From Neocallimastix lanati (nom. inval.) (taxonomy: Eukaryota; Neocallimastigomycota; Neocallimastigomycetes; Neocallimastigales; Neocallimastigaceae), in the NCBI GenBank assembly GCA_016946835.1, contig JACVTC010000150.1, forward strand, positions 321,501-385,500: a DNA stretch of 64,000 bases, written 5' to 3'. Both the position numbers and the translations under genes were made by a program. The notes under the pieces are model-generated. The model ran no database searches. It saw only the letters and a list, made by a program, of their open reading frames with translations, and was not told the origin of the DNA. Positions 5,806-36,112 of this stretch are shown here, in pieces; the first letter of the stretch is position 1, and the number at the start of each line of letters is the position of its first letter.

Positions 5806-5824
5806 TGGTGGAGATATCGGGGAT
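5806..5824 (+). promoter_or_regulatory. tRNA primer-binding site (PBS) of the first Ty3/gypsy element
   Basis: TGGTGGAGATATCGGGGAT is complementary to a tRNA 3' end reading from T-loop A58 through CCCCGA, acceptor strand TATCTCC, discriminator A and CCA. The same 19 bases follow the 5' LTR of the intact element at 22992. A U at position 70 would fit the G3-U70 pair of alanine tRNA, but the primer identity is inference. Confidence 0.75.
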
Positions 5825-7819: not shown

Positions 7820-10771
7820 AGGAAGAAGGCTAACTTCCTTTAATCAAAATGCCAACCCTAGTATATTTGCAGTTAATAATTGGAATGATAGATATCAAGA
7901 TATAATTGCAGCTACAAAATATAGTAGGGATGAAAAATATTCTACATTATTACCAAATTCTAAAAGAACTGCAAATAATAAAATTATTAATAATACAAAT
8001 AATAGTAATGAATTGAACAACTTAAACAATAATATTAATAATAATTCGAATAATAATAATAATGATATAAAAATTATTAAACCTAACCCAAAGGAAACTA
8101 TTAAACCATTACAAAATTTTGCCAAATCAAGTTCTAAAACACATTCAAGAAATAATACAAATAATAGCAATATTCATAATGATATTCCTATTAAAAATAA
8201 TATAATTATCAACAATGATAATGAAAATAGTTTTACAGTAAGGAAAACAACTCAAGATAATAAAATCACTATAAATTTTAATGGAAATAATAAAAATAAT
8301 AAAATTAAAACAGAAAATAAACCACCTAGAGTTAATCAAATAATTCAATTAATGGATGGAGTAGAGTCATACAACATATTAGAGGAATTGAAGAATACTC
8401 CAGCTCATATTACATTAGCTCAATTACTTAATATAAGTAGTTCCTTACGTTCGGATGTGACTAAAAGTTTTAGGAAATCTAGAGGTGACGATGAAATTAT
8501 AGTAGGACTAGCAGATTCTCATAATACTATAACAGATTTAGAAATTGTGAATAACCCTTCTCATGATTATAATAGTAAAAATGTACAAGAACATGATATT
8601 GCTGTAGTTAAAGGTTTTGTTAATGGAGCTACCGCAAGCAGTTCTTATTGATGGATGTAGTAATGCGAATTTAGTCACTCGTAACTTTTTAAATAATTCT
8701 ATTAAAAATTATAAAATAATTGGTTCAGTTACAAGTAAAGTTCATCAAGCTATGTCTGATGCTGAGGAACGTGTATATGAAATAGTCCAATTAGATGTTA
8801 ACATAGGAGATTTAAAGATTTCAAGTAATTTTAGAATATCTGAAAAAGAAGACTCCTTTTATGATATTATTATTGGTTTGAAAACTCAGCACGATCATAG
8901 AATTATTGTGGATACTGTGGACAAATACTTATCAATTAAAAATAAAGAAAATAAATTGGTTCCCTTAGTTCTGATAGAGGATATATCCATGTTTCATTCA
9001 CAAGCCTTATTATGTTATTTATATGATGATAATTTCTCAATATCTGCTAGTACTATTTTTACAAACATAAAAGATGATAAAAGAGCTATTATAGAATCAG
9101 TTATAGAAGGTATGGATATTCAGGAAGATACAATAAAATCAGAATTAAGAAATCTGTTAATAACATTTAATGATGTCGTTGCAATATCTTCAGATGATTT
9201 GGAACCACCCAAATTATTACCACATCATGTCGAACTAGTAGATGGAGCAAAACCTATTAAACAAATAGCATATAGGTTATCCCATATCCAATTAACAGCA
9301 TTGAAAGAAGAATTAAAAAAATTAATTGATAAAGGTTTAATTTCTCCTTCCCACTCTTCATGGTCGTCTCCCATTGTATTGGTACCAAAGAAAAATGGTC
9401 GTTGGAGACTATATGTAGATTATAGGTTAATTAATAATATTACAATAAAAGATGTATATTCACTACCAAAAATTCAAGAAATATTTGACGCTCTAAAGGA
9501 TGCTACTATTTTCTCAACTATTGATTTATTTAGTGGATATCATCAAATTCCTATGCTTGTTGATGATCAAGAAGTTATCTCCTTTACTACAAAATATGGT
9601 AACTATTATTTTAAAGTGATGCCGTTTGGGTTAACAAATGCACCGGCCACTTTTCAGAGGGAAATGAATCGAATATTTTTCGATTTAATTAATAATTGTG
9701 TACAAATATACCTTGATGATATTATTGTTTATTCCCCTAATATCGAACAACATTTTATTAGATTTAAAAGAAGTATTTAATATTTTAAGAAAACATAAAT
9801 TAAAATTAAATATTGAAAAATGTCGTTTTTATAGGTATGAAGTAGAGGCTTTGGGACATAAAGTAACAAATAAAGGTTTATTACCTATTAAGAAGAAAGT
9901 AGAAGCTATTAGTAAGATGAATATCCCAAATAATATTACGGAGTTGCGTTCTTTTCTAGGTATGGTTGGTTACTATAGAAATTATATTGATAATTATGCG
10001 TTAATATCAGCTCCCTTATGTAAATTATTGAGGAAAAATATGGAATATATCTGGACATTAGAACATACTGAAAGTTTCAACAAATTGATAAACGCGTTAG
10101 TTAATGCACCTATTCTTTGTTACCCAAGATTTGATAAACCATTTATCATCCGTTCTGATGCTAGTTTTAATGGTATTGGTAGTGTCTTACTACAATTATA
10201 TGATGATAACATAGAACATCCAGTTTATTTTGTTAGCCGCTCTCTAACTAAATCAGAAAGAAATTATGCCATTACAGAATTAGAGGGTACCGCTGCATAC
10301 TATTGTATTAATCAATTTAGACCATATATACTTAGTAATCCATTTCAGACAATTTTATATACTGACCACTTACCTTTAGTTTCTATTATTAAGAAGTTAG
10401 AACCTGCAACTAGTAAACATGATCGTTGGTGTAATCTTTTTAGTCAACTTAAAGTTAATATTGTATATCAACCTGGTAAGGGTAATATTATCATTGATGC
10501 ACTATCAAGAATTAGAAAAAAAGATAATATAATAGTAGATACATTAATTAATAATAATAATAATGAAGAAAATAATGATGGAGGGAATAATTCTATAGAG
10601 AATAGCAGTAATAATGATGAAAATAATCTAATTGAGGCAATAAATGATGTTGAAAACGAAAAATATATAGATGAATTTATGAAAAAATTCTTGAAAGATC
10701 GAATAATTACAATAGATGGTAAAACTTATATTAGAGATAATATAACGAATACTAAATGTAAGAAATTATAA
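7820..10771 (+). pseudogene. Ty3/gypsy Pol: protease, RT, RNase H; two frameshifts, integrase lost
   Basis: Three overlapping frames together give one Pol. The first (to 8651) is an Asn-rich linker ending VVKGFVNGA. A one-base shift near 8630-8640 separates it from the protease VLIDGCSNANLV. RT follows with SPIVLVPKKNGRWRLYVDYR, TIDLFSGYHQIP, GLTNAPATFQRE and catalytic YLDDIIVYS. An extra T in TTTT at 9753-9756 shifts the frame just after SPNIEQH. RNase H continues with IRSDASFNGIG, ITELEG and YTDHLPL. The frame stops after DGKTYIRDN, the region that precedes the integrase zinc finger in the intact element; no integrase follows. Both shifts are single-base; the second is in a homopolymer and could be a sequencing error, but the missing integrase shows real decay. 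Confidence 0.85.
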
Positions 10772-21358: not shown

Positions 21359-21921
21359 TTTTTTTTTTTTTTTTTTTTTTAACGACCGTAGCAGGATTTC
21401 TCCCCAGCTGTACATCTTGTAGACACACAATGGTTTATAACTAGAGCCCTTATCTAACTTCCTACTTTAGTAGGTGGTCCCGTCCCTGCTGGACTGCCTT
21501 ACAGTTACTCTGCATTGGCGCTCCTTACCCAAGTATAATTACTGCTTGTCATTGTACGATAATCTTACAATTGGGTCTTGCAGCCACAATCTCCGGGATC
21601 ACGTGACAACCGCTCCATAACATACCTATAAGTAAGGATAACTAAATTTTCATATGTCACCATATGTTGGGTATCTCCTCTTAAGAAACTTTGCCATACA
21701 CACTCAACCCTCTCAGGCCTGCAAGAAGTGTAAATCGATGAAAGTTGAATTAGAGATATAGGGGGTATCAAATGGGTATAATACTTACCTGAAAACCCTA
21801 ACCACCTAATAACGAAAAACCAGTGGAAAAAACGCTATAGGCATAGGGAGGGGTCGAACCAGGAACCTTATGCTCTCAAAGCTTACGCCTTAACAGCCAG
21901 GATAAAACCTGGAACAATTAT
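21359..21921 (-). mobile_element. tRNA-derived SINE with poly(A) tail
   Basis: On the minus strand it has a tRNA-like head. A TGGCTGTTAAGG box (plus 21888-21899) resembles the D-arm A box of Ser/Leu tRNAs. A perfect polymerase III B box, GGTTCGACCCC (plus 21850-21860), lies at normal spacing. Between them a 7-base loop TTTGAGA with near-complete stem would give anticodon UGA. A GC-richer body of about 450 bases follows, ending in about 20 A (plus T-run 21359-21380). Flanks show an imperfect duplication, AATTATATAAGAT left and AATTATAAGAT right. SINEs are transcribed by Pol III and copied by a partner LINE. The short frame at 21565-21771 inside it is not a gene. Confidence 0.6.
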
Positions 21922-21926
21922 AAGAT

Positions 21927-22984
21927 TGATAAAGAATGAAGTAATAAATTGATTCTTATTAAAAACCTTTTAATATAGTCAAGGTGAATTTTAAAATATT
22001 AATAAATTTATGTATTCTTTACATTAATAATTTTACTATATTATTTGATCTGAAAATTTAAGTTTATACATAAAATTTAATTTAAATTTATGTTCATTCC
22101 TTATAAAGGTAAATTAAATTTATGAGAGTTTAGCAATAACATAGTACTAATTACTTTTAGTATTATTTTTCTAAATAAGGAATAATTCCTGTATATAAAC
22201 AACTTAAATAACTTTATCAATATTTCTGTCTTTCGAATTAAGAAATAATTGAAATGAAAGAAATAAATAAAATAAAATTTTCTGTATTTAAAATTGTAAA
22301 AGATTTTTCATATATTAATAAATGTATTTTATTTTCTATTATGTCATTCAAATTAATATATAAGATTACATATTAAATTAGTATCAAAATTAAGTTAAAG
22401 TATTCAATTTTATTGTAATACTGCTTCTCTTTTTTTTGTTTAATTCTTATCTATAATGCATCTTTTATATTATAGATTTATTTTGGTTAATTTGAATATT
22501 AGGAAATAATAAAATTTCTATTTAATACAATAAGGAAATAATCAATAAGATTTAAAAATCTATTGTTTTTCCATCTCTTCAACTACTTCCAGAGGCTTTG
22601 CTACTTTTATATCTTCAAAAAGATATAAATTGACTACCTTGGAACCCCTTTTTAGGAGAGAGAGAAAAAAAAAAAAAAAAAGAAAAAAAAAAAAAAAAAA
22701 AAAAAAAATAGAAATAATAAAAATAAATAAATAAAAAAAAAAAAAATAAAATAAATAAATAAAAATAATAATAAAAATAAAATAAAAATAAAATAAATAA
22801 ATAAAAATAATAATAAAAATAAAATAAAAATAAAATAAATAAATAAAAATAATAATAAAAATAAAATAAAAATTAAAATAAAAATATAATAAATAAATAA
22901 AAATTATTGTGAAAGAATAAAATTTTTTTTTGTGTTTTAATATTATATAATTTTTTTTTTTTTTGAATTCCTCGAACCATAACA
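21927..22984 (+). mobile_element. 5' LTR of the complete Ty3/gypsy element
   Basis: It starts TGATAAAGAATG and ends CCATAACA. It contains a 13-bp palindrome AGGAATAATTCCT (22178-22190) one base from the TATA box, a hairpin downstream, and an A-rich tract of AAAATAAAT type (22673-22900). Reverse-strand frames through that tract (Phe/Tyr/Ile repeats) are not genes. Confidence 0.9.
22178..22254 (+). promoter_or_regulatory. LTR promoter module: palindrome, TATA box, downstream hairpin
   Basis: AGGAATAATTCCT (22178-22190), TATATAAA (22192-22199), then a hairpin at 22231-22254 with arms TTTC-g-AATT and AATTGAAA around AAGAAAT. An identical copy lies in the 3' LTR (TATA at 30039, hairpin 30078-30101). 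Confidence 0.5.
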
Positions 22985-22991
22985 TAAAGTT

Positions 22992-23010
22992 TGGTGGAGA
23001 TATCGGGGAT
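22992..23010 (+). promoter_or_regulatory. tRNA primer-binding site of the complete Ty3/gypsy element
   Basis: TGGTGGAGATATCGGGGAT, seven bases after the LTR end, identical to the PBS at 5806-5824. It complements CCA, discriminator A, acceptor strand and the T-arm up to A58 of one tRNA. Confidence 0.85.
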
Positions 23011-23569
23011 TTCAAAATTAAAAACTAATATTAAAACATACACAATAATTTTATTTAATTAAATAAAAAAAAAAAAAAAAAAAAATTTTTTTTACAATAA
23101 TATAGAAATATAATATATACATAAATAAATATTAATAATTTAAAGTAGCACCTACGTCCTTACTATATTAGTTGGATAAATAATTTCATTCAACAAAGTT
23201 GTTATATTTCTGTTTGTGCAAGAGAAACAGTGTGATATAAAACTTTGAAATATTTATTCCTGTCAAGTACTAATTAGTAAGAATAATAATTTAATTATAT
23301 TATACATTTATTCATTAATATAAGAATACTTTTATACAATTTATAACTTATTGTAATCGGCGGCTGTTGGATGAAAAACTCCTTAGCTTAAGGCTTTGTT
23401 ACAATTAAGTGTATATAGTAATTCGTATTTATATTATCGACTAAATTATATTATAATTGAAATTATAAATTCAAATTTATAAATATATACATATATATAG
23501 TATCTATATATTGATACCAAGACTGTTGATATATATAGATATAAAAATTAGACGTTTATATTAGAGAAT

Positions 23570-23760
23570 AGGAGAAGGATTGCTTTACACATAGGGAGGT
23601 AGTAGAGCATTATTGAATAAGGTTTAGTGATACAAGTGATAACAGAATAGAAAAAGTGGTAAGGTCCCGTGTTCGTACAGGCACACACTACTCTGTTATA
23701 TTCACTATTCTGACGGTTCAATAGTGGAGGTCGAACGGCCCTGTAAAGAATCTGCGGATC
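23570..23760 (+). other. Structured leader block, possible packaging signal
   Basis: An 8-bp perfect inverted repeat CAGAATAG/CTATTCTG and an overlapping AACAGA/TCTGTT pair allow two alternative folds. AGGTAGTAGAGCA resembles a tRNA D-arm and GTGTTCGTACAGG an imperfect B box. Position after the PBS suits an RNA packaging or dimerisation element, or a captured SINE fragment. Both readings are inference. Confidence 0.3.
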
Positions 23761-23994
23761 CGAAAATAATATAAAGCTAATAATATATATATAAGAAATA
23801 TTTATAAATTTTCCATATTAATTTTTTTTAATTTAGCAATTAATTTATTCCGTGCTACATATAAGAAATTCTAGTGTACTGAATTCCAAAAAAAAAAAAA
23901 AAAAAAAAAATTTTTGTTTACTGTTCTTACTCTGTGGTTAAGTGAAATTGAGCCAAAGAAGAAGGACTACTATATTTTTTTTACTACCTGTTTG

Positions 23995-24205
23995 ATTTGG
24001 TTGTCGAGGTGTATCTTGAACCAAATAATTATCATTATAAGTGGTCGAAGTGTCATTCGAGCTTATAACCTTAATATAATTATATCTTCTATTGGTGATC
24101 GAAAGGTATTCGAACCAATAATATAAAATTTTCTTAGGTGGTCGAGTGTTATTCGAACCTAAAAATATATTTCTTGTAGGTGGTCGAAGTGTATTTCGAA
24201 CCTCA
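23995..24205 (+). promoter_or_regulatory. Tandem array of five covarying hairpins in the Ty3 leader
   Basis: Five units at 23995-24026, 24035-24068, 24090-24120, 24134-24162 and 24178-24203. Each has an outer stem of 4 to 8 bp, a 2-base bulge on the 5' side (TG, GG, GA, GG, GG), a 5-bp inner stem TCGAA/TTCGA (TCGAG/CTTGA in unit 1, TCGAG/TTCGA with one G-U in unit 4), and a 5-6 base loop, mostly GTGTAT-like. Outer stems differ between units but pair in each: ATTTGGT/ACCAAAT, TTATAAG/CTTATAA, TATTGGT/ACCAATA, TTAGGT/ACCTAA, AGGT/ACCT. Confidence 0.75.
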
Positions 24206-24478
24206 TATAAATAACTATAAAGATATAATTTAATAAACAATAATTATAAAATATTTTAATCTTGGATATCAAAATAAAACAAAACAAAAAAAAAAAACAA
24301 AAAAAAAAAAACAAAAAAAAAAAACAAAAAAAAAAAAAAAAAAATTTTACTTATTTTTTTTTTATCTCTGAAGTGTTTGTAAACTTACCTATTTTTTTTT
24401 TCTAATCTCTGAAGTGTTTGTAAACTTATAAATTCTAATACTATATTATATATATCTATAACATACTCACACACACAA

Positions 24479-24536
<58 letters not shown>

Positions 24537-24594
24537 TATTATTTTTATTTTGAATATTTTACCTATATTACTGTATAATTTCTACTCAAGAAAT

Positions 24595-25554
24595 ATGGCT
24601 TCAGTTACTAATGATACTACTAATGTTCCTTCATTTAAAGATCTTAAAAAGGAACTAAAATATGTTGATAAATTAAACAAGGACCATTTGGATATAAAAT
24701 CTTGGGCTTCTGAAATTGAGTTATGGATCCAATTACAAAATATCACTGATCCAAAAACTATTTTTGTTGCTTGCCTATTAACGTCTACTGGTGAACCAAG
24801 ACAAATTATCCAAGAATTAGAACTACCTGCTACTACAGCAGAAGAAGATGTAGAATTGAATGGTTCCACTGATACTGGTGAGATGTCAGGATCTAGCACC
24901 AGTAGCTCTACTAGTTCAAGTAGTTCTAGTAATGATAGTGTTAGAACTAACCGTTATCCTTCTTTTGTCGAGATCGTCAACGCTCTTGAAGTATTCTATG
25001 GGGCAAAGGAAGATCAGAATACCTTATTAAGGGAATTGCGTGCTCTTAAAATTGGTAGAAATGAAAAAGTAAGGGATTTTAATAAAAGATATCGGACATT
25101 ATATTTAAAATTAGATAAAACTCACAAAAAACAAATCAGTATCTTGGACTATGCTGATGCACTTGAGAATAATATTGAGGCCTGGAAAAGAGTAACTTTA
25201 ATTGATGATATACCACTTTCAAAGGCTTATGAAATTGCAGAAAAAGTGGATAGACTTGCTGTGAGGTTACATCGTGTACCAAGTCCTAATAGAAATGTTT
25301 CCAACAATAATAATAATAATTATAATAAGAGTCGTAGTTCACCACCAAGAAATACTTATGAAAACAGGGACAATAGGAAAGTTTCTGATGAAAGTGAAAG
25401 GGAGAACCTTACACGTGGACCAAGAAACTCTACCGTCAAAACCTGTTTCTTCTGTAAGGAACCTGGACATTATCAACAACATTGTCCCAAACTACAAGCC
25501 ATTATAGAAGAAAATAAGAAACAGATTTTTTCCAAAGGACCTTTAAACCAGTAG
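24595..25554 (+). CDS. Ty3/gypsy Gag
   Basis: About 319 residues from the ATG at 24595 (MASVTNDTTNVPSF); an in-frame ATG at 24550 would add 15 residues with no homology. The capsid-like region includes WASEIELWIQLQN, a Ser/Thr-rich insert, EVFYGAKEDQNTLLRELRAL and KVRDFNKRYRTLYLKL. A basic Asn/Ser/Arg linker leads to the zinc knuckle CFFCKEPGHYQQHC (CX2CX4HX4C) near the C-terminus, which binds genomic RNA. Gag assembles the cytoplasmic particle in which reverse transcription takes place. Pol is in the -1 frame; the overlap is 25518-25554, and a T-run (ATTTTTTTCC, about 25525-25532) lies at its start. Confidence 0.92.
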   Translation: MASVTNDTTNVPSFKDLKKELKYVDKLNKDHLDIKSWASEIELWIQLQNITDPKTIFVACLLTSTGEPRQIIQELELPATTAEEDVELNGSTDTGEMSGSSTSSSTSSSSSSNDSVRTNRYPSFVEIVNALEVFYGAKEDQNTLLRELRALKIGRNEKVRDFNKRYRTLYLKLDKTHKKQISILDYADALENNIEAWKRVTLIDDIPLSKAYEIAEKVDRLAVRLHRVPSPNRNVSNNNNNNYNKSRSSPPRNTYENRDNRKVSDESERENLTRGPRNSTVKTCFFCKEPGHYQQHCPKLQAIIEENKKQIFSKGPLNQ

Positions 25555-28500
25555 AAGGGAGAGGAAGCACTCCCATCAAAAAAATAGCTTCATTAAAATA
25601 TACTTCCAATTCTTCTGATGCAGAAAGTAAAGACTACAGAGTGGATTATACTATCAAAAGTCATGATCAGGTAGGAGAATATTTTGTCGGTGCGGCAAAA
25701 AGAAAACTTGATGAAAGTGATGTTGAGTTAGATAATGGAAAAGGAAGGAAAATTCATAAAAGCCTACGTGATAATCCACGACCTATAAACACTCCTGCAT
25801 TAAGAAAAAGAAAAGAAAGAGAATTGGAAACTGAAGAGGTGATACCTCATAAGAAACAGTTGCAAACATCAATAATTATGCAACCAAATATCAATAAAGA
25901 AAAGAAAATTGAAAAAGCAATACGTGATAAAGAAAGATTTTTGAAATCTAGTACTAATTCTAAAGAATTCGAAACTGCATCATCCAGTCAGTCTAATGTA
26001 AACTTAATTACTAATAAAGAGGAAATAACTTCAAAAGTTGATAATGTAGAAGCTCCAAGGGAAATTAACCAAACTAGAGAAAGAAAAAAAGACAAAAATA
26101 ATAATAATAATACTAGTAATCCTAATAATAGTAACAACGGAACTATTAGAAAAACCCCAGTCGTAAATGATATTAATAATAATAATACTATTAATATTAA
26201 TAATAATGAAACTATTATCGATAATAATCATGTAACGAATAATAAAAATATATTAAATAAATTAATTAATACAGATGGTATTAATAATAATAATAATAAT
26301 GATAATAATAATAGTATGAAAATACCTCGGGTAAATCGAATTATTAAAATGCTTTCTAATTATAAGGAATATGATGTATGGGATGATTTAAGCAATACCA
26401 AGTGTAATATTACCTTTGGACAGCTTTGGAATGCTGCGCCTAAAATAAGAAGTCAAGTCTCCCAAGGTTTAAAACTAGTAAAAGCCACCACTAATGTTGT
26501 TGGCGCTATTAATAATGTAGTTGCTACTACAACATTAGTTAATAATGTTGATCATAACTATAAAAGTAAAAGTACAGAAATAACAGAGGAGGATATTGCA
26601 ATGGTAGATGCCTCTGTTGATGGTGTATCTGGAAAATTACTTATTGATACGTGTAGTAATTTAAATATTATGTCACAAAAATATTATAATTCTCTACCAT
26701 ACCAATATACCGTTGTTGGTCATAGTTGTGGTAGAATAATGCTTGCCACTAGAGACGATGAATACTCTGAAGGAATAGTCGTTAGGATACCTGTGAAAGT
26801 TAATGAGCTTTCATTGTTAATTGATTTCCGAATTGTAGAAAAAGAGGAACCATTTTATGACATGCTAATTAATTTAAAAACTATAGTTGATAATAGATTA
26901 TTTATTAATCCCTTAAATAATTGCTTATGTAAATATAACATGGATGGTACTATCAGTTCTATTACACCAATAAATAATTCTGCAATTGACGAAAAATATA
27001 TTTGTAGTGTTAACAAATTACTTGAGGATAATAGTAAGGAAAAATATGCTGGTGGGGAATTAAAGAAATTAGAAGGATTACCACCTATGGAATATATACA
27101 TAATACAATATTTATGAATACTCTAAATGAAAAATATAGAACTGATATAATACACCTATTAGAGGACAATATAGAAATTGTTGCTACGTCGTCTGAGGAA
27201 TTAACACCATCATTGCTTTCACCACACAAAATAAATCTAAAAGCTGGTACCAAACCTATAAAACAAAGAGCTTATCGGCTAACAAAATTAAAGACAGATA
27301 TTTTAAAGGAAGAATTAACTAAGTTAATTAATAAAAAGTTAATTGAGCCTTCAAATTCTGAATGGTCTTCGCCTATTGTTCTAGTACCAAAGCCTAATGG
27401 GAAATGGCGTATGTGTGTAGATTATAGGAAGGTTAATGATTCTACTATAAAGGATTCTTATTCTATACCATACATTGATGAAATTTTTGATAGTCTCAAT
27501 GGTGCAACTATCTTCACTACCATTGACTTATACTCTGGATATCACCAAATTTTAATGGAGGAAGAAAGTATTGGTATAACAACTTTCACCACTAAGTTTG
27601 GTAACTACCAATTTAAAGTTATGCCATTTGGTTTAACCAACGCTCCTGCAACCTTTCAAAGAGAAATGAATAGAATCCTATTTCCTTTAATAGGAAAGTG
27701 TGTTTATAATTTTATCGATGATATACTTATATACTCTAAAACAGTTGAAGAACACCTCCAACATATTCAACAAGTTTTATCCATACTCAAAGAAAATAGA
27801 TTAAAACTTAATATTGAAAAGTGTCACTTCATGAAAACAGAAGTGAATGTTTTGGGGCATAGATTAACCACTAAAGGCTTAAAACCTCTTGATAGTAAAA
27901 TCGAGGTTATCAGAGATTGGAAACCCCCTCAGGACATCCATGAATTACGTTCATTTTTAGGAGCTGTTGGATACTATAGAAATTTCATCGATAAATATTC
28001 ACAAATTACTGCGTGTTTGTGTAAATTATTAAGGAAAGGTGTGAAGTATGTTTGGACTAGTGAACACCAAAAATCGTTTGAAGTACTGAAAGAAAAACTA
28101 ATAAATGCACCCATATTAAGTTTCCCTCAGTTTGATAAAGAATTTATTATACGTACCGATGCTTCTTATGATGGAATAGGAGGTGTGTTATTACAAAAAG
28201 ATAATGAAACTGGAAAAGAACACCCTATTCACTTTATTAGTAGAAGTTTGACCAGAGCAGAAAAGCATTATGGTATAACTGACCTAGAAGGTGCTGCCCT
28301 ATATTATTGTATAACTAAATTAAAACCGTATATAGATGGAAATCCAATACCAACTATTGTATATACGGACCATAAACCGTTACTAGGGTTGTTCAAAAAT
28401 AAGGAACCACATAATGCAAGGCAAACTAGATGGTGTTTGACAGCTAGTATGCTTGGTGTAGACATTAGATATGAAACCGGTAAAAAGAATGTGCTTGCTG

Positions 28501-29750
28501 ATGCCCTATCCCGAATGAAAAATAATAAAGAAAATGTAGTTTTAGCTACGAAAATAATTAACCATGATATTACGAATGATGAAAATGAAGCCTTATTATC
28601 CAAAGTAATACATGATTTTATCAATGAAAAATTCACCACTATTGATGGTATTGACTACTTTATTGATGGTAACAATTATAGAAAATTAGTAACCGATCTT
28701 AATGAAAGAATAAAATTAATATTAGAGGCTCATAATATTGGACACGATGGTTATTATAAGACTTATCAACGTTTACGTAAGAGTTATTATTGGAACGACA
28801 TGGTGAATGATGTTAAACGTGTTGTCAGTAAGTGTGAAAAATGTCAATTAAATCGACCACAACCTTATCCAGAGCCTACAGAAAATCTACCTACTAAAGT
28901 GGAAGGACCTTTTGTACATCTTGGTTTGGACATTATCGGTCCACTGGTTAAAACTAGAAGTAATAATCAATATATAATAGTAGCTGTTGATTATTTCACT
29001 AAGTGGGTAGAAGCAGAACCGACTGAAAATATCACTTCTAAAGACGTAATTAAGTTCCTTATTAACGTATTTTCTCGTCATGGAGTTCCCCAAGTAATTA
29101 CCACCGATAATGGTGCCCAATTTACATCAGATATGACTAAAATATTTTTAGATCTATATGATGTATATATAAAATTTGTTACAACATATCATCCCGAATC
29201 TAATGGACTTACGGAAAATCGTAATAAAGAAATTGGTAAACTCCTTAGATTGCTTGGGACAAAAAATAAAGATTGGGATGAGGTATTACCCTCTGCTCTC
29301 TGGGCTTTAAGAACCGTTAAAAATAGTACCACTAACCATTCTAGTTTTGAATTAGTTTATGGTCGTGAAGACCAACAACCTTTTGATATAGCTGCAAGAC
29401 CGACTAAAGGTATAAATAAATCTTCTGATGAAATTCTATTGGAAAAGTTTATATCTCATTATAGATGGACCATAGAAGCATCAGAAAATGTGAAAAATGC
29501 AAATAAATATTGGGCTGTTAGACGAGAAGAAAAACAAAGTATGAATCAGGCTAAGGAAATCAAGGAGGGAGATTTAGTCCTAGTTAGAAACTTTAGTAGA
29601 ACTAAACTAGAACCTTATTTTAATGGACCTTTAAAAGTAATCAAGAAAAAGTTTAATACAGTTACGTTAGCTGATCCAAATTCAGGAATATTATTAAATC
29701 GGAATGTACACCTCAAAAATATAGTAAAATATAACTCAGCTACAATATAG
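25518..29750 (+). CDS. Ty3/gypsy Pol: protease, reverse transcriptase, RNase H, integrase
   Basis: One uninterrupted frame; the first ATG (25641) gives 1369 residues, but the frame is open from 25518 inside gag, so -1 frameshifting is likely. Residues below count from 25641. An Asn/Lys-rich linker of about 320 residues precedes protease LLIDTCSNLNIM (about 333). RT has SPIVLVPKPNGKWRMC, TTIDLYSGYHQIL, GLTNAPATFQRE and catalytic FIDDILIYS (about 691). RNase H has IRTDASYDGIGG (about 835), LEGAALYY and TDHKPL. Integrase has an HHCC finger (HNIGHDGYYKTY to CEKCQ, about 1031-1072), then GLDIIGPL, TTDNGAQF and PESNGLTENRNKE for D-D-E, and a C-terminal YFNGPLKV block. I see no chromodomain. All catalytic residues except the protease Gly are present. 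Confidence 0.93.
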   Translation, partial: ETDFFQRTFKPVEGRGSTPIKKIASLKYTSNSSDAESKDYRVDYTIKSHDQVGEYFVGAAKRKLDESDVELDNGKGRKIHKSLRDNPRPINTPALRKRKERELETEEVIPHKKQLQTSIIMQPNINKEKKIEKAIRDKERFLKSSTNSKEFETASSSQSNVNLITNKEEITSKVDNVEAPREINQTRERKKDKNNNNNTSNPNNSNNGTIRKTPVVNDINNNNTININNNETIIDNNHVTNNKNILNKLINTDGINNNNNNDNNNSMKIPRVNRIIKMLSNYKEYDVWDDLSNTKCNITFGQLWNAAPKIRSQVSQGLKLVKATTNVVGAINNVVATTTLVNNVDHNYKSKSTEITEEDIAMVDASVDGVSGKLLIDTCSNLNIMSQKYYNSLPYQYTVVGHSCGRIMLATRDDEYSEGIVVRIPVKVNELSLLIDFRIVEKEEPFYDMLINLKTIVDNRLFINPLNNCLCKYNMDGTISSITPINNSAIDEKYICSVNKLLEDNSKEKYAGGELKKLEGLPPMEYIHNTIFMNTLNEKYRTDIIHLLEDNIEIVATSSEELTPSLLSPHKINLKAGTKPIKQRAYRLTKLKTDILKEELTKLINKKLIEPSNSEWSSPIVLVPKPNGKWRMCVDYRKVNDSTIKDSYSIPYIDEIFDSLNGATIFTTIDLYSGYHQILMEEESIGITTFTTKFGNYQFKVMPFGLTNAPATFQREMNRILFPLIGKCVYNFIDDILIYSKTVEEHLQHIQQVLSILKENRLKLNIEKCHFMKTEVNVLGHRLTTKGLKPLDSKIEVIRDWKPPQDIHELRSFLGAVGYYRNFIDKYSQITACLCKLLRKGVKYVWTSEHQKSFEVLKEKLINAPILSFPQFDKEFIIRTDASYDGIGGVLLQKDNETGKEHPIHFISRSLTRAEKHYGITDLEGAALYYCITKLKPYIDGNPIPTIVYTDHKPLLGLFKNKEPHNARQTRWCLTASMLGVDIRYETGKKNVLADALSRMKNNKENVVLATKIINHDITNDENEALLSKVIHDFINEKFTTIDGIDYFIDGNNYRKLVTDLNERIKLILEAHNIGHDGYYKTYQRLRKSYYWNDMVNDVKRVVSKCEKCQLNRPQPYPEPTENLPTKVEGPFVHLGLDIIGPLVKTRSNNQYIIVAVDYFTKWVEAEPTENITSKDVIKFLINVFSRHGVPQVITTDNGAQFTSDMTKIFLDLYDVYIKFVTTYHPESNGLTENRNKEIGKLLRLLGTKNKDWDEVLPSALWALRTVKNSTTNHSSFELVYGREDQQPFDIAARPTKGINKSSDEILLEKFISHYRWTIEASENVKNANKYWAVRREEKQSMNQAKEIKEGDLVLVRNFSRTKLEPYFNGPLKVIKKKFNTVTLADPNSGILLNRNVHLKNIVKYNSATI

Positions 29751-29760
29751 CTTGAGTCTT

Positions 29761-29773
29761 AGCGGGGGCATCG
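29761..29773 (+). promoter_or_regulatory. Possible polypurine tract before the 3' LTR
   Basis: AGCGGGGGCATCG lies directly before the LTR; the minus-strand relative has CGGGGAATC at the same place. It is short and interrupted, so the plus-strand primer assignment is tentative. Confidence 0.35.
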
Positions 29774-30829
29774 TGATAAAGAATGAAGTAATAAATTGAT
29801 TCTTATTAAAAACCTTTTAATATAGTCAAGGTGAATTTTAAAATATTAATAAATTTATGTATTCTTTACATTAATAATTTTACTATATTATTTGATCTGA
29901 AAATTTAAGTTTATACATAAAATTTAATTTAAATTTATGTTCATTCCTTATAAAGGTAAATTAAATTTATGAGAGTTTAGCAATAACATAGTACTAATTA
30001 CTTTTAGTATTATTTTTCTAAATAAGGAATAATTCCTGTATATAAACAACTTAAATAACTTTATCAATATTTCTGTCTTTCGAATTAAGAAATAATTGAA
30101 ATGAAAGAAATAAATAAAATAAAATTTTCTGTATTTAAAATTGTAAAAGATTTTTCATATATTAATAAATGTATTTTATTTTCTATTATGTCATTCAAAT
30201 TAATATATAAGATTACATATTAAATTAGTATCAAAATTAAGTTAAAGTATTCAATTTTATTGTAATACTGCTTCTCTTTTTTTTGTTTAATTCTTATCTA
30301 TAATGCATCTTTTATATTATAGATTTATTTTGGTTAATTTGAATATTAGGAAATAATAAAATTTCTATTTAATACAATAAGGAAATAATCAATAAGATTT
30401 AAAAATCTATTGTTTTTCCATCTCTTCAACTACTTCCAGAGGCTTTGCTACTTTTATATCTTCAAAAAGATATAAATTGACTACCTTGGAACCCCTTTTT
30501 AGGAGAGAGAGAAAAAAAAAAAAAAAAAGAAAAAAAAAAAAAAGAAAAAAAAATAGAAATAATAAAAATAAATAAATAAAAAAAAAAAAAATAAAATAAA
30601 TAAATAAAAATAATAATAAAAATAAAATAAAAATAAAATAAATAAATAAAAATAATAATAAAAATAAAATAAAAATAAAATAAATAAATAAAAATAATAA
30701 TAAAAATAAAATAAAAATTAAAATAAAAATATAATAAATAAATAAAAATTATTGTGAAAGAATAAAATTTTTTTTTGTGTTTTAATATTATATAATTTTT
30801 TTTTTTTTTGAATTCCTCGAACCATAACA
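29774..30829 (+). mobile_element. 3' LTR of the complete Ty3/gypsy element
   Basis: A copy of 21927-22984 with the same ends; the clearest differences are in the A-runs near 30510-30555. It starts 23 bases after the pol stop. The apparent reverse-strand frame at 30462-30830 is the A-rich tract, not a gene. Confidence 0.9.
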
Positions 30830-30833
30830 AGAT

Positions 30834-33617: not shown

Positions 33618-35366
33618 TTAATTATTATTATGATTATTATTATTATTAGTAGCAGTAGTAGTAGTAGTAGTAGTAGTAGTAGCAGTAGTAGATGATGGTA
33701 GTTCATTCCAAAATTTATAAAGGAAGTCGGTGATAATTCTAAATTTATCATAATTTTTATTATTTAATATACTGTCTAGTATATTATAGTTTGGTGGTGG
33801 ATGATCACCATACTTTCGAAGTTCACTTTTATATGCATAGATGTCATCGTTGCATATAAAATGCCAAAAGGAAACATGCATAAATAATTTGCATTTCTGA
33901 ATATGAGCTCTATTCATTTCCCTATGACATATTGGACAGATCTTTTTATAGAGAAAAGTATTTAATCTCCATCTTATTGCTCTATATCTTGTTATAGGAT
34001 CATTGATATAGATGCATTGATCAGAAGAATTAGTTTCTTTAATATAATTTTTATCGGTCTTCTTTTTCACTCTTGCAAATGGAAGAATACAACTTGTTAA
34101 CGCTGAACTTCCAAAGTTACTTTTATAAATAAGATCTTTTATTCTTGAATCCAAACCAATAAGATCTATATCTGGATCATTCGGGTCTTCGTCGTCTGGT
34201 ATCACTGGATCTTTTAATCCAAAGTATTTTAAATGGAACAAATGATCCCAGTCCATAACTTTATAAAAAAAGGAATTTCTTGGGATCCTACTTTTATAGT
34301 TATTGATATAAAAGGCCACATTTAAAGGATTATCTTCATCTATTTCTTTAATGTGCCTTTTAAATTTTAATGATAATGTATAGAGTCTTTCTAAAGTTGG
34401 AGGTAATCCTAAAATAGAAAAGCCTATACGAAAACGTTTAGTATTTAAGATCCATTTAACTCCTAGTCTCATTACTTTATTATAAAGATGGATCTCTTCA
34501 AAGGGTTCTTTGGAATTTAATTCTCTATTTTCAAATTCTTCAATACTTTTCATCCAGTAAAAGGAAAGACAAGCAGAATGTTTCATCATTGGTCTAATAA
34601 ATGATCTAAATATGAATAACTTAATTGAAGGCGACCATTTATTGATATAATAATTCAGAGACTTTAACAATTTTAATGATCGTTCTGCTGAATTATTTAA
34701 ATGTTCTTTCCAATTAATTCCAGAACATCTATGAATAAAACCCAAATACTTGTATTCTTCTTTTTTTGGAAGTCTATTTTCTTCTGAACCTAAATAAAAA
34801 GGAAGATTATCCACGTTATTATTATTATTATAATTATTTATGTTGTTATTATCATCATCATTATCATTATCATTATCATTATCATTATCATTATCATTAT
34901 CATTATCATTATCATTATCATTATCATTATCATTATCATTATCATTATCATTATCATTATCATTATCATTATCATTATCATTATCATTATCATTATCATT
35001 ATCATTATCATTATCATTATCATTATTGTTATTAAAATAAGGATCACTAAGGAAAGCTGACTTTTCAATATTAAACTCCATTCCATTTTCTTCAGCCCAT
35101 TTAAAACAGATATCTATCATTTTTTGCATATCATCTTTATTTTCATTATTTAATTTAATATCATCAGCATAGAAAAGACAATGAGGTAATGGATCATTTG
35201 GATACCTTTCGATCAATTCTGATGCTAAATCATCAATGAAAATATTAAAAAGTAAAGGTGATAAAATAGCACCTTGTAGTAAGCCTCTTTGTATTTCTAT
35301 TTCATCCGTTATTTCCTGATTTACAATAATTCTTGTAGTACATCCAGAAAATAACGAAGCAATCAA
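33618..35366 (-). pseudogene. LINE reverse transcriptase, 5'-truncated (copy 1)
   Basis: An open frame of 582 residues without an ATG at its start (the first codon is TTG); homology to copy 2 stops at IASLFSGCTTR, where a satellite begins. RT motifs are QGAILSPLLFNIFIDDL and catalytic HCLFYADDIKLN, then FNIEKSAFLSD. Next comes an (Asn-Asp)n tract from a hexanucleotide repeat, then EEYKYLGFIHR, a long C-terminal domain and a knuckle CPICHREMNRAHIQKC (CX2CX7HX3C). The C-terminus is a Thr/Asn homopolymer run. The N-terminal RT, endonuclease and ORF1 are missing, as expected for a 5'-truncated LINE insertion. The family differs from the LINE at 1-4.9 kb. Confidence 0.85.
34859..35026. repeat. (ATTATC)n hexanucleotide microsatellite in the RT gene
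   Basis: About 27 near-perfect copies. On the minus strand they encode alternating Asp and Asn within the RT. Both-strand frames here (His-Tyr, Met-Ile, Leu-Ser repeats) are shadows. Confidence 0.9.
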
Positions 35367-35367
35367 A

Positions 35368-35895
35368 AATTTTTTTTTTATCTCTGTAAAATTTTTGTAA
35401 TAAATTTTTGAAAGTTATCATGAATCAGTATGATATACGGGTTTAAATAATTCATGAAATAATAAACCTAGAATAAAATAAATTATATCATTGGAAAGGT
35501 ATTTGTTTTCATTAAATTAATATGAAATTGAATTACTTGTAACTTTATATTTAAAGATTTTCAAAAAAATTTTTTTTATCCCTTTAAAATCTTTGTAATA
35601 AATTTTTGAAAGTTATCATGAATCAGTATGATATACGGGTTTAAATTATTCATTAAATAATAAACCTAGAATAAAATAAATTAAATCATTAGAAAGGCAT
35701 TTGTTTGCGCTAACTTAATATGAAATTGAATTACTTGTAACTTTATTTTTAAAGATTTTCAAAAAACTTGTTTTTATCTCTGTAAAATTTTTGTAATAAA
35801 TTTTTGAAAGTCAACATGAATCAGTATGATATATGGGTTTAAATAATTCATGAAATAATAAACTTAGAATAAAAAAAATTATATCATTAAATATG
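35368..35895. repeat. ~198-bp tandem repeat, about 2.7 copies
   Basis: Units start at about 35379, 35577 and 35774. They share TTTTTGTAATAAATTTTTGAAAGT, CATGAATCAGTATGATATA and GAAATTGAATTACTTGTAAC. It abuts the truncation point of the LINE. Nothing coding is seen, and the next 217 bases are plain AT-rich sequence. Confidence 0.8.
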
Positions 35896-36112
35896 TAATA
35901 TAAAAATATTTAATACATTAGCTTTTAAATTCGTAAGCATTGTTATTTAAAGCTAATAATTTCTTTTAAAATACATATTTATTATAATACCAAATAATCA
36001 TTTATATTTAAATGTTTGAGAAAATATAAATTTAAATATTAAATAAATTTAATTTAAAATATTAATGAATAAATATTAATTATATAAATAAATAAATAAT
36101 TTAACAAATATA

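Follow-up and report, generated by a model that had tools for sequence, protein, structure and literature searches.

A Ty3-type LTR retrotransposon in Neocallimastix lanati carries a row of five tandem bulged hairpins in its leader, between the primer binding site (PBS) and gag. Comparison within and across families of related elements supports the view that this structure has been kept under selection, because covariation exceeds that of shuffled, slid and half-swapped controls. The array may be a modular cis-acting signal of the genomic RNA, most likely used for Gag binding and packaging. We hold this reading with moderate confidence. The window analyzed is a stretch of 64,000 nucleotides, and all positions below are counted within it.

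The carrier element and its five hairpins

The carrier looks like a young and apparently intact Ty3-type LTR retrotransposon on the forward strand, with LTRs, target site duplication, PBS, gag and pol in order. The 5' LTR (21927..22984) is 1058 nt and the 3' LTR (29774..30829) is 1056 nt, and a paired comparison gave one mismatch and one 2-nt gap. The target site duplication AGAT was found at both outer LTR edges (21923..21926 on the left, 30830-30833 on the right). The PBS, TGGTGGAGATATCGGGGA (22992..23009), starts 7 nt past the 5' LTR. It is the complement of the CCA-ended tRNA-like 3' part in locus L071. The gag gene (24595..25554) encodes 319 aa with one zinc knuckle, CFFCKEPGHYQQHC, at residues 284-297. 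Pfam matched it to Ty3_capsid at E 6.2e-5 and to zf-CCHC at E 0.013, each below the curated cut-off. The pol gene (25518..29750) is a 1410-aa open frame that overlaps gag in another frame and encodes RT, RNase H and integrase. From NCBIfam came nothing beyond IS-type integrase matches below cut-off. A polypurine-tract-like G-run (29760..29773), assigned by position and reading, abuts the 3' LTR. A near-identical G-run also precedes the 3' LTR of family F1, described below. The preliminary description had placed the array between PBS and gag of an apparently intact Ty3 element, and the LTRs, the AGAT duplication, gag and pol agree with that placement.

Other features were seen in the window. 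Ty3 elements are known to insert beside Pol III genes. A minus-strand tRNA-like remnant was recognized by eye right beside the 5' LTR (21830-21910); ARAGORN and Rfam make no call there. Three tandem copies of 198 nt lie at 35363-35956, and a repeat with 12-nt steps (34764-35075) lies within an ORF having an RT domain. A GC-richer part of the leader (23580-23760) recurs in the leaders of L017 and L029, which belong to the same family, and may be a further structured domain.

All five hairpin units lie on the forward strand. Unit 1 (23995..24026) has the outer stem UUUGGU/ACCAAA, the bulge UG and the inner stem UCGAG/CUUGA. Unit 2 (24036..24067) has the outer stem AUAAGU/GCUUAU, the bulge GG and the inner stem UCGAA/UUCGA. 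Unit 3 (24090..24120) contains the same inner stem as unit 2, with the bulge GA and the outer stem UAUUGGU/ACCAAUA. Units 4 (24133..24163) and 5 (24175..24206) both have the bulge GG, with the outer stems UUAGGU/ACCUAA and AGGU/ACCU, respectively. The unit starts are 41-54 bases apart, and the spacing had been described as about 45 bases. Folded singly, the units reach -7.3 to -10.3 kcal/mol, each with a 2-nt 5' bulge and an outer stem of 4-8 bp. The inner stems are TCGAA/TTCGA or near variants such as TCGAG/CTTGA. These unit-by-unit folds bear out the architecture first proposed, in which a 2-base 5' bulge separates a near-constant inner stem from differing outer stems of 4-8 bp.

Just 1 of 200 dinucleotide shuffles folds as stably as the 231-nt array (z -3.4). 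The minimum-energy fold of these isolated 231 nt rewires units 2 and 5 into longer pairings. In the fold of the 1.6-kb leader, units 1-4 are present and unit 5 is partial. Rfam gave 0 matches at gathering across the window and 0 at E up to 1 across 22900-24650, and ARAGORN found no tRNA in the window.

Three further candidates were set aside. A sixth unit that the motif scan placed in the window leader (23349) is probably due to chance, and a wider covariance model (R2) gives five units per leader of this family. A suspected degenerate unit near 23931-23963 (L029 1661-1690) scored E 0.16 and was left uncounted. Matches of model R2 at 9664-9689 and on the antisense strand of the units of this family were put down to chance or palindromy.

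Pairing within and between families

Families were labeled F0-F9, F4b and Fx by the bases that follow the PBS; these labels are our own. The window element is F0. Within the window, 93.3% of the 60 pair cells of the five units are paired (1 of 500 shuffles as high). Two-sided changes occur at 5 of 12 pairs (5 of 500 shuffles), and the covariation score is 0.417 (0 of 500).

A 14-unit set was compiled with a single row for each unit position in each family (F0, F1, F2 and F7). It omits F8, the F0 variants seen in L017 and L029, and F2 unit 3, which equals F2 unit 2. The set contained 134 paired cells out of 140 and 15 two-sided changes. Swaps of the 3' halves among the 14 units gave means of 85.3% paired and 3.4 two-sided changes, and 0 of 5,000 swaps reached the observed values. 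An 11-row alignment of trimmed units has the same omissions and also lacks F7 and units 3 and 4 of F1, which have other bulge lengths. It was 91.7% paired (0 of 500 shuffles), with two-sided changes at 7 of 11 pairs (1 of 500). Its covariation score was 0.430 versus 0.209 (0 of 500), and the signal was lost when partners were slid. RNAalifold returned the same bulged fold from this alignment.

The constant letters across the 14 units are a 5' GU, a bulge with G, and UC, followed on the 3' side by GA and RC. The bulge is 1-3 nt. The A of the conserved 3' GA is replaced by U in 2 of the 14 units. The inner stems of F1 include UCAG/CUGA and UCGG/CCGA at the place where F0 has UCGA/UCGA. Unit 1 of F0 also varies between copies with pairing kept, as UCGAG/CUUGA in the window and UCGAA/UUCGA in L017. 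The preliminary description had read differing stems with preserved pairing as selection on RNA structure. That reading held, with two-sided changes far beyond the shuffle, slide and half-swap controls and the array present in all F0 (4/4) and F2 (10/10) leaders.

The non-Watson-Crick cells of the 14 units comprise 12 G.U, 0 A.C and 6 others. The balance of G.U over A.C points to RNA of the sense strand, although single copies do have A.C breaks. We consider an element acting as DNA, either a cruciform or a protein site with dyad symmetry, the least probable of the readings weighed here. The inner TCGA core is palindromic, and the A.C mismatches of single copies would suit such an element. Against it, the outer stems pair despite their variation, and all 14 units, as aligned by hand, have their bulge on the sense strand's 5' side. 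The G.U excess is also strand specific, though its 12 cells sit in five columns, seven of them in one.

Among the rows for single copies, four of F2 and one of F0 contain A.C mismatches, alongside other mismatches. Two F1 rows contain them as well, in which the alignment template is displaced by an additional base. Decay after insertion would produce such breaks, as would absence of structure. It is highly improbable that the array has no function and is a tandemly duplicated inverted repeat carried along as the elements spread, its pairing inherited and not selected. Such a repeat would account for the broken pairs, for the 45 of 63 same-PBS places that manage without an array, and for the range of 5-7 units among ten F2 copies in the motif scan, which indicates active duplication. 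It would not account for the two-sided changes between units and families, which are far above the swap and shuffle controls.

Folding stability differs by family, with z of -5.5 for F1, -3.5 for F0, -0.4 for F2, and -1.25 and -0.93 for F8. One of four comparisons between copies suggested slower change in the hairpins. In L055 versus L036 (F1), the hairpins differ by 7.7% and the rest by 14.7% (p 0.022, uncorrected). The other three were not significant (p 0.21, 0.38 and 0.5).

Families with and without the array

The genome searched comprised 199 Mb in 762 contigs. Of 1,440 candidate CBM_10 domains in it, 150 scored above the cut-off, whereas 0 of 14 control genomes had any, and this suggests an anaerobic gut fungus. 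The 221-base array had at least 40 matches, all full length and 99-100% identical, the window's own included; these were the 40 scored among 54 candidates. The unit pattern of F0/F1 type occurred at 110 places, the F2-type pattern at 1,286 and the F1 unit 3 pattern at 36, each with 0 in the reversed control. The F1 unit 2 pattern occurred at 38 places, of which at least 2 fall outside F1 judging from their sequence, and its reversed control gave 2. The PBS core TGGTGGAGATATCGGGG was found at 927 places (705 + 196 + 26; control 0), which means that one primer site serves many families. As many as 37 of the 927 are tRNA-like pieces. A tRNA 3' part plus primer complement occurs at 37 places in the genome, L071 among them. 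L071 was not classed as a tRNA, and ARAGORN recognizes none in it. It encodes CCA and may be a retro-copied tRNA piece.

We read 63 places. They were 60 PBS loci (the first of the 927 by contig number), the two window sites and L036, which came in through its hairpin and not its PBS. Reading covered about 1.5 kb after each PBS, so that more distant units would be missed. The scanner was written with the motif already known. It found 93 units versus 3 reversed, 1 antisense and 4.6 per mononucleotide-shuffled set.

The array was present in 4 of 4 F0 leaders, with five units each by model R2 (6 each by motif scan). Its absence from other copies of the family had been named as the outcome that would count against the proposal, and that outcome did not occur. 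All three F1 leaders contain it, with 3, 4 and 4 units, as do all ten F2 leaders, with 5-7 units by motif scan. The one F7 leader has a single unit. The remaining 45 places were without a unit within about 1.5 kb by the same scan. They were F3 (7), F4 (6), F4b (1), F5 (5), F6 (1), F8 (2), F9 (21), Fx (1) and a tRNA-like place (1). The array is not universal among elements with this primer site. A second element with the same PBS, from position 5806 of the window onward, belongs to F9 and has no hairpin unit by scan.

A model of the five window units was run on 162 kb (the loci plus the window). It recovered F1 unit 1 twice (E 3e-8 and 3e-7), along with F2 units at a best E of 0.0015. F1 unit 2 scored no better than E 0.6, and F1 units 3 and 4 were missed. 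The wider model R2 was built on 35 rows, one of them an antisense match, and gave the F7 unit E 0.0087. The sequence around the F7 unit aligns with the F1 leader in L068 at 77% across 78 columns (E 9e-6).

Two further leader features were seen. Both F8 leaders (L090 and L097) contain a row of four to five other hairpins about 660-930 nt past the PBS, directly upstream of gag. These have outer stems of GATATA..TATATC type with AGGGG at the bulge. Their sequence is unrelated to the window array, and their folding z is about -1. A GC-richer second leader domain is common to L040 (F3), L044 and L064 (F5), L074 (F7) and L051 (F2). Its matches span 125-286 columns at 77-90% likeness, and it looks structured. 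The F5 leader L044 was read through, and gag was not reached within it.

F1 appears to be a non-autonomous LTR element that has retained the array and would be mobilized in trans. One copy, at C7, is a complete element and was read from LTR to LTR. It contained LTRs 97.2% identical over 533 nt, the target site duplication ACTG, the PBS and four hairpins. Its interior is about 2.1 kb, and the whole element is about 3.2 kb. This copy has no gag-pol frame. No sense frame reaches 60 aa in L055 or exceeds 63 aa in L099. No long frame crosses the join of L055 and L099, because the frames at the end of L055 run just 0-3 aa. This copy would therefore need proteins in trans. Another F1 locus, L036, contains frames of 94 aa and then 217 aa, and Pfam places no family above cut-off in either.

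An LTR-end motif of F4 type is joined to an F1 leader at the PBS at four places (G000 C13, C58, C103 and C295). F1 unit 3 lies about 370 nt downstream at each. The sole join that was read, L068, is F4-like over 1041 columns upstream and F1-like over 1406 columns downstream; the F4 side of the other three rests on few bases. Template switching between co-packaged RNAs would give such joins. The scan gave F4 itself no unit, although F4-type LTR ends take part in these joins with F1 leaders, and this argues that the array is not the sole packaging signal in the group.

Candidate function and comparison with known signals

Sequence comparison established a selected paired fold, a position in the leader, a variable number of units and retention in a gag-less element. 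From these we infer that the array acts as RNA in the cell, that Gag is its binding partner and that packaging is the outcome. Retroelement packaging signals usually lie between PBS and gag, and the array is a structured stretch of sense-strand leader RNA in that interval. Several functions had been listed in the preliminary description. Packaging through Gag is favored among them, because gag-less F1 retains the array. Retention by a non-autonomous element was seen in one full copy of F1, for which mobilization in trans is the likely route. A scanning block and a tRNA T-arm mimic are disfavored.

F1 has a parallel in BARE2 of barley, an element of copia type. BARE2 is a Gag-less parasite of BARE1 that keeps packaging and dimerization signals and is packaged in trans, and the portions of the source consulted describe no array of the present kind in it (PMC3735527).

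In the mechanism we propose, each unit would be a docking site in which an unpaired G sits within a 1- to 3-nt bulge (5' GU-bulge-UC ... GA-RC 3'). Two stems would hold the bulge, their letters being free provided that they pair. The number of units would grow by tandem duplication, and the units would then drift through compensatory changes. Several copies of Gag would bind the row of bulges through the zinc-knuckle domain, and the docked Gag would in this way pick out the RNA that enters the particle. A parasite that encodes nothing, as F1 appears to be, would have to keep this role.

The main rival is an element for nuclear export or RNA stability, in which a host protein at the bulges would export or protect the unspliced RNA, as an export factor does with the constitutive transport elements of retroviruses. 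Retroviral RNA export elements are described in the consulted part of PMC4829213. Repeated bulged sites would suit such a role, and gag-less F1 would keep it just as well. We regard it as possible but doubtful. The array sits where packaging signals usually lie, and export at the 45 of 63 same-PBS places that have no array must do without it.

A tRNA T-arm has a 7-nt TTCRANY loop on a 5-bp stem. Its mimicry by the units is disfavored because TTCGAA is in the stem and not in a loop, and because F1 replaces it with UCAG/CUGA and UCGG/CCGA. ARAGORN finds no tRNA in the window.

The long leaders of gag-bearing families are AUG-poor. The F0 leader (23010-24594, 1585 nt) contains 1 AUG versus 24.0 expected from dinucleotide shuffles, and 0 of 500 shuffles were as low. 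That AUG is far upstream of the array, and there is none from the array to gag. The observed versus expected counts were 2 v 15.4 in F2 (L051), 1 v 5.5 in F3 (L040), 1 v 16.1 in F4 (L047), 4 v 10.7 in F7 (L074), 3 v 9.7 in F8 (L097) and 2 v 9.0 in F9 (L078). The second window element (F9, 5806) has 0 AUG in a leader of 844 nt versus 10.0 expected. F1 was less clear, with 3 v 9.7 in the first 542 nt and 14 v 27.2 over 1501 nt. Raw counts of CAT, taken with no expectation, were 14 in F0, 9 in F2, 6 in F3, 4 in F7, 12 in F8, 7 in F4, 6 in F9 and 3 in the second window element; in F7 (L074) the AUG count equals the CAT count.

This scarcity of AUG suggests that ribosomes probably scan these leaders, array included. 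The block to scanning once suggested for the array is therefore disfavored, with the one AUG of F0 far upstream and none between array and gag. More generally, the array might slow, shunt or gate ribosomes heading to gag. Slightly less than 400 nt separates its end from the gag AUG, and ribosomes probably travel through the AUG-poor leaders of gag-bearing families. We consider such translational control unlikely, since the AUG counts of F0 indicate scanning through and not a block, each hairpin is worth a mere -7 to -10 kcal/mol, and gag, the gene to be regulated, is missing from the F1 copy read.

Dimerization, in which hairpins from two genomic RNAs would pair mutually, is very unlikely. The position in the leader would suit it, and the self-complementary stems could build extended duplexes between RNAs. 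The loops, however, vary between units and families, with no palindromes by eye, and a dimer would not need the conserved bulge.

Several known systems resemble the array in part. MS2-type bulged hairpins are coat-protein sites in RNA phages, where they are dispersed over the phage genome. The window units are likewise bulged hairpins; the proteins differ, and no common sequence was noted. The retroviral packaging signals of HIV-1 (core encapsidation signal) and MMTV (psi) lie in the leader, as the array does, and have several Gag/NC sites per structured stretch there. As far as is known, they differ in that they are composed of varied stem-loops, whereas the array is a tandem row of one bulged module in variable number, to which Gag would presumably bind. 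In the part of the HIV-1 source consulted, NC has over two dozen sites on the leader dimer and binds first at a [UUUU]:[GGAG] helix whose pairing is weak (PMC7395439). The corresponding part of the MMTV source states that MMTV Gag needs the PBS together with a purine loop that is single-stranded (PMC8096270). The cis signals of budding-yeast Ty1 and Ty3 share the element class (Ty3) and lie in the same RNA region. In the sections consulted, the packaging sequences and Gag sites of yeast Ty3 are not precisely defined, its dimerization is assigned to a palindrome, and no tandem bulged hairpin is described (PMC4974528; PMC11381356).

The array appears to be new as a form of retroelement leader signal, with the function proposed above. 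The preliminary description knew of no such repeated bulged hairpin in the leader of an LTR element. In keeping with this, titles and abstract openings of the open-access papers listed contain no such array (most subscription papers lie outside this scope), and Rfam has no match. We suggest only tentatively that it represents an undescribed class of signal, in which tandem bulged hairpins duplicate, compensate and recruit Gag by number. This class would be shared with a coding-free parasite, and F8 would have evolved an unrelated row in the same place.

Packaging signals of Ty3 are imprecisely defined even in yeast, as far as the consulted parts of two sources go (PMC4974528; PMC11381356), and here there are many diverged repeats of one candidate module. 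These diverged versions include those of a coding-free parasite, and a candidate contact site can therefore be named, namely the bulge with its GU/UC and GA/RC flanks. It may be tested with short RNAs. The array would show a retroelement signal evolving through tandem duplication and compensatory change.
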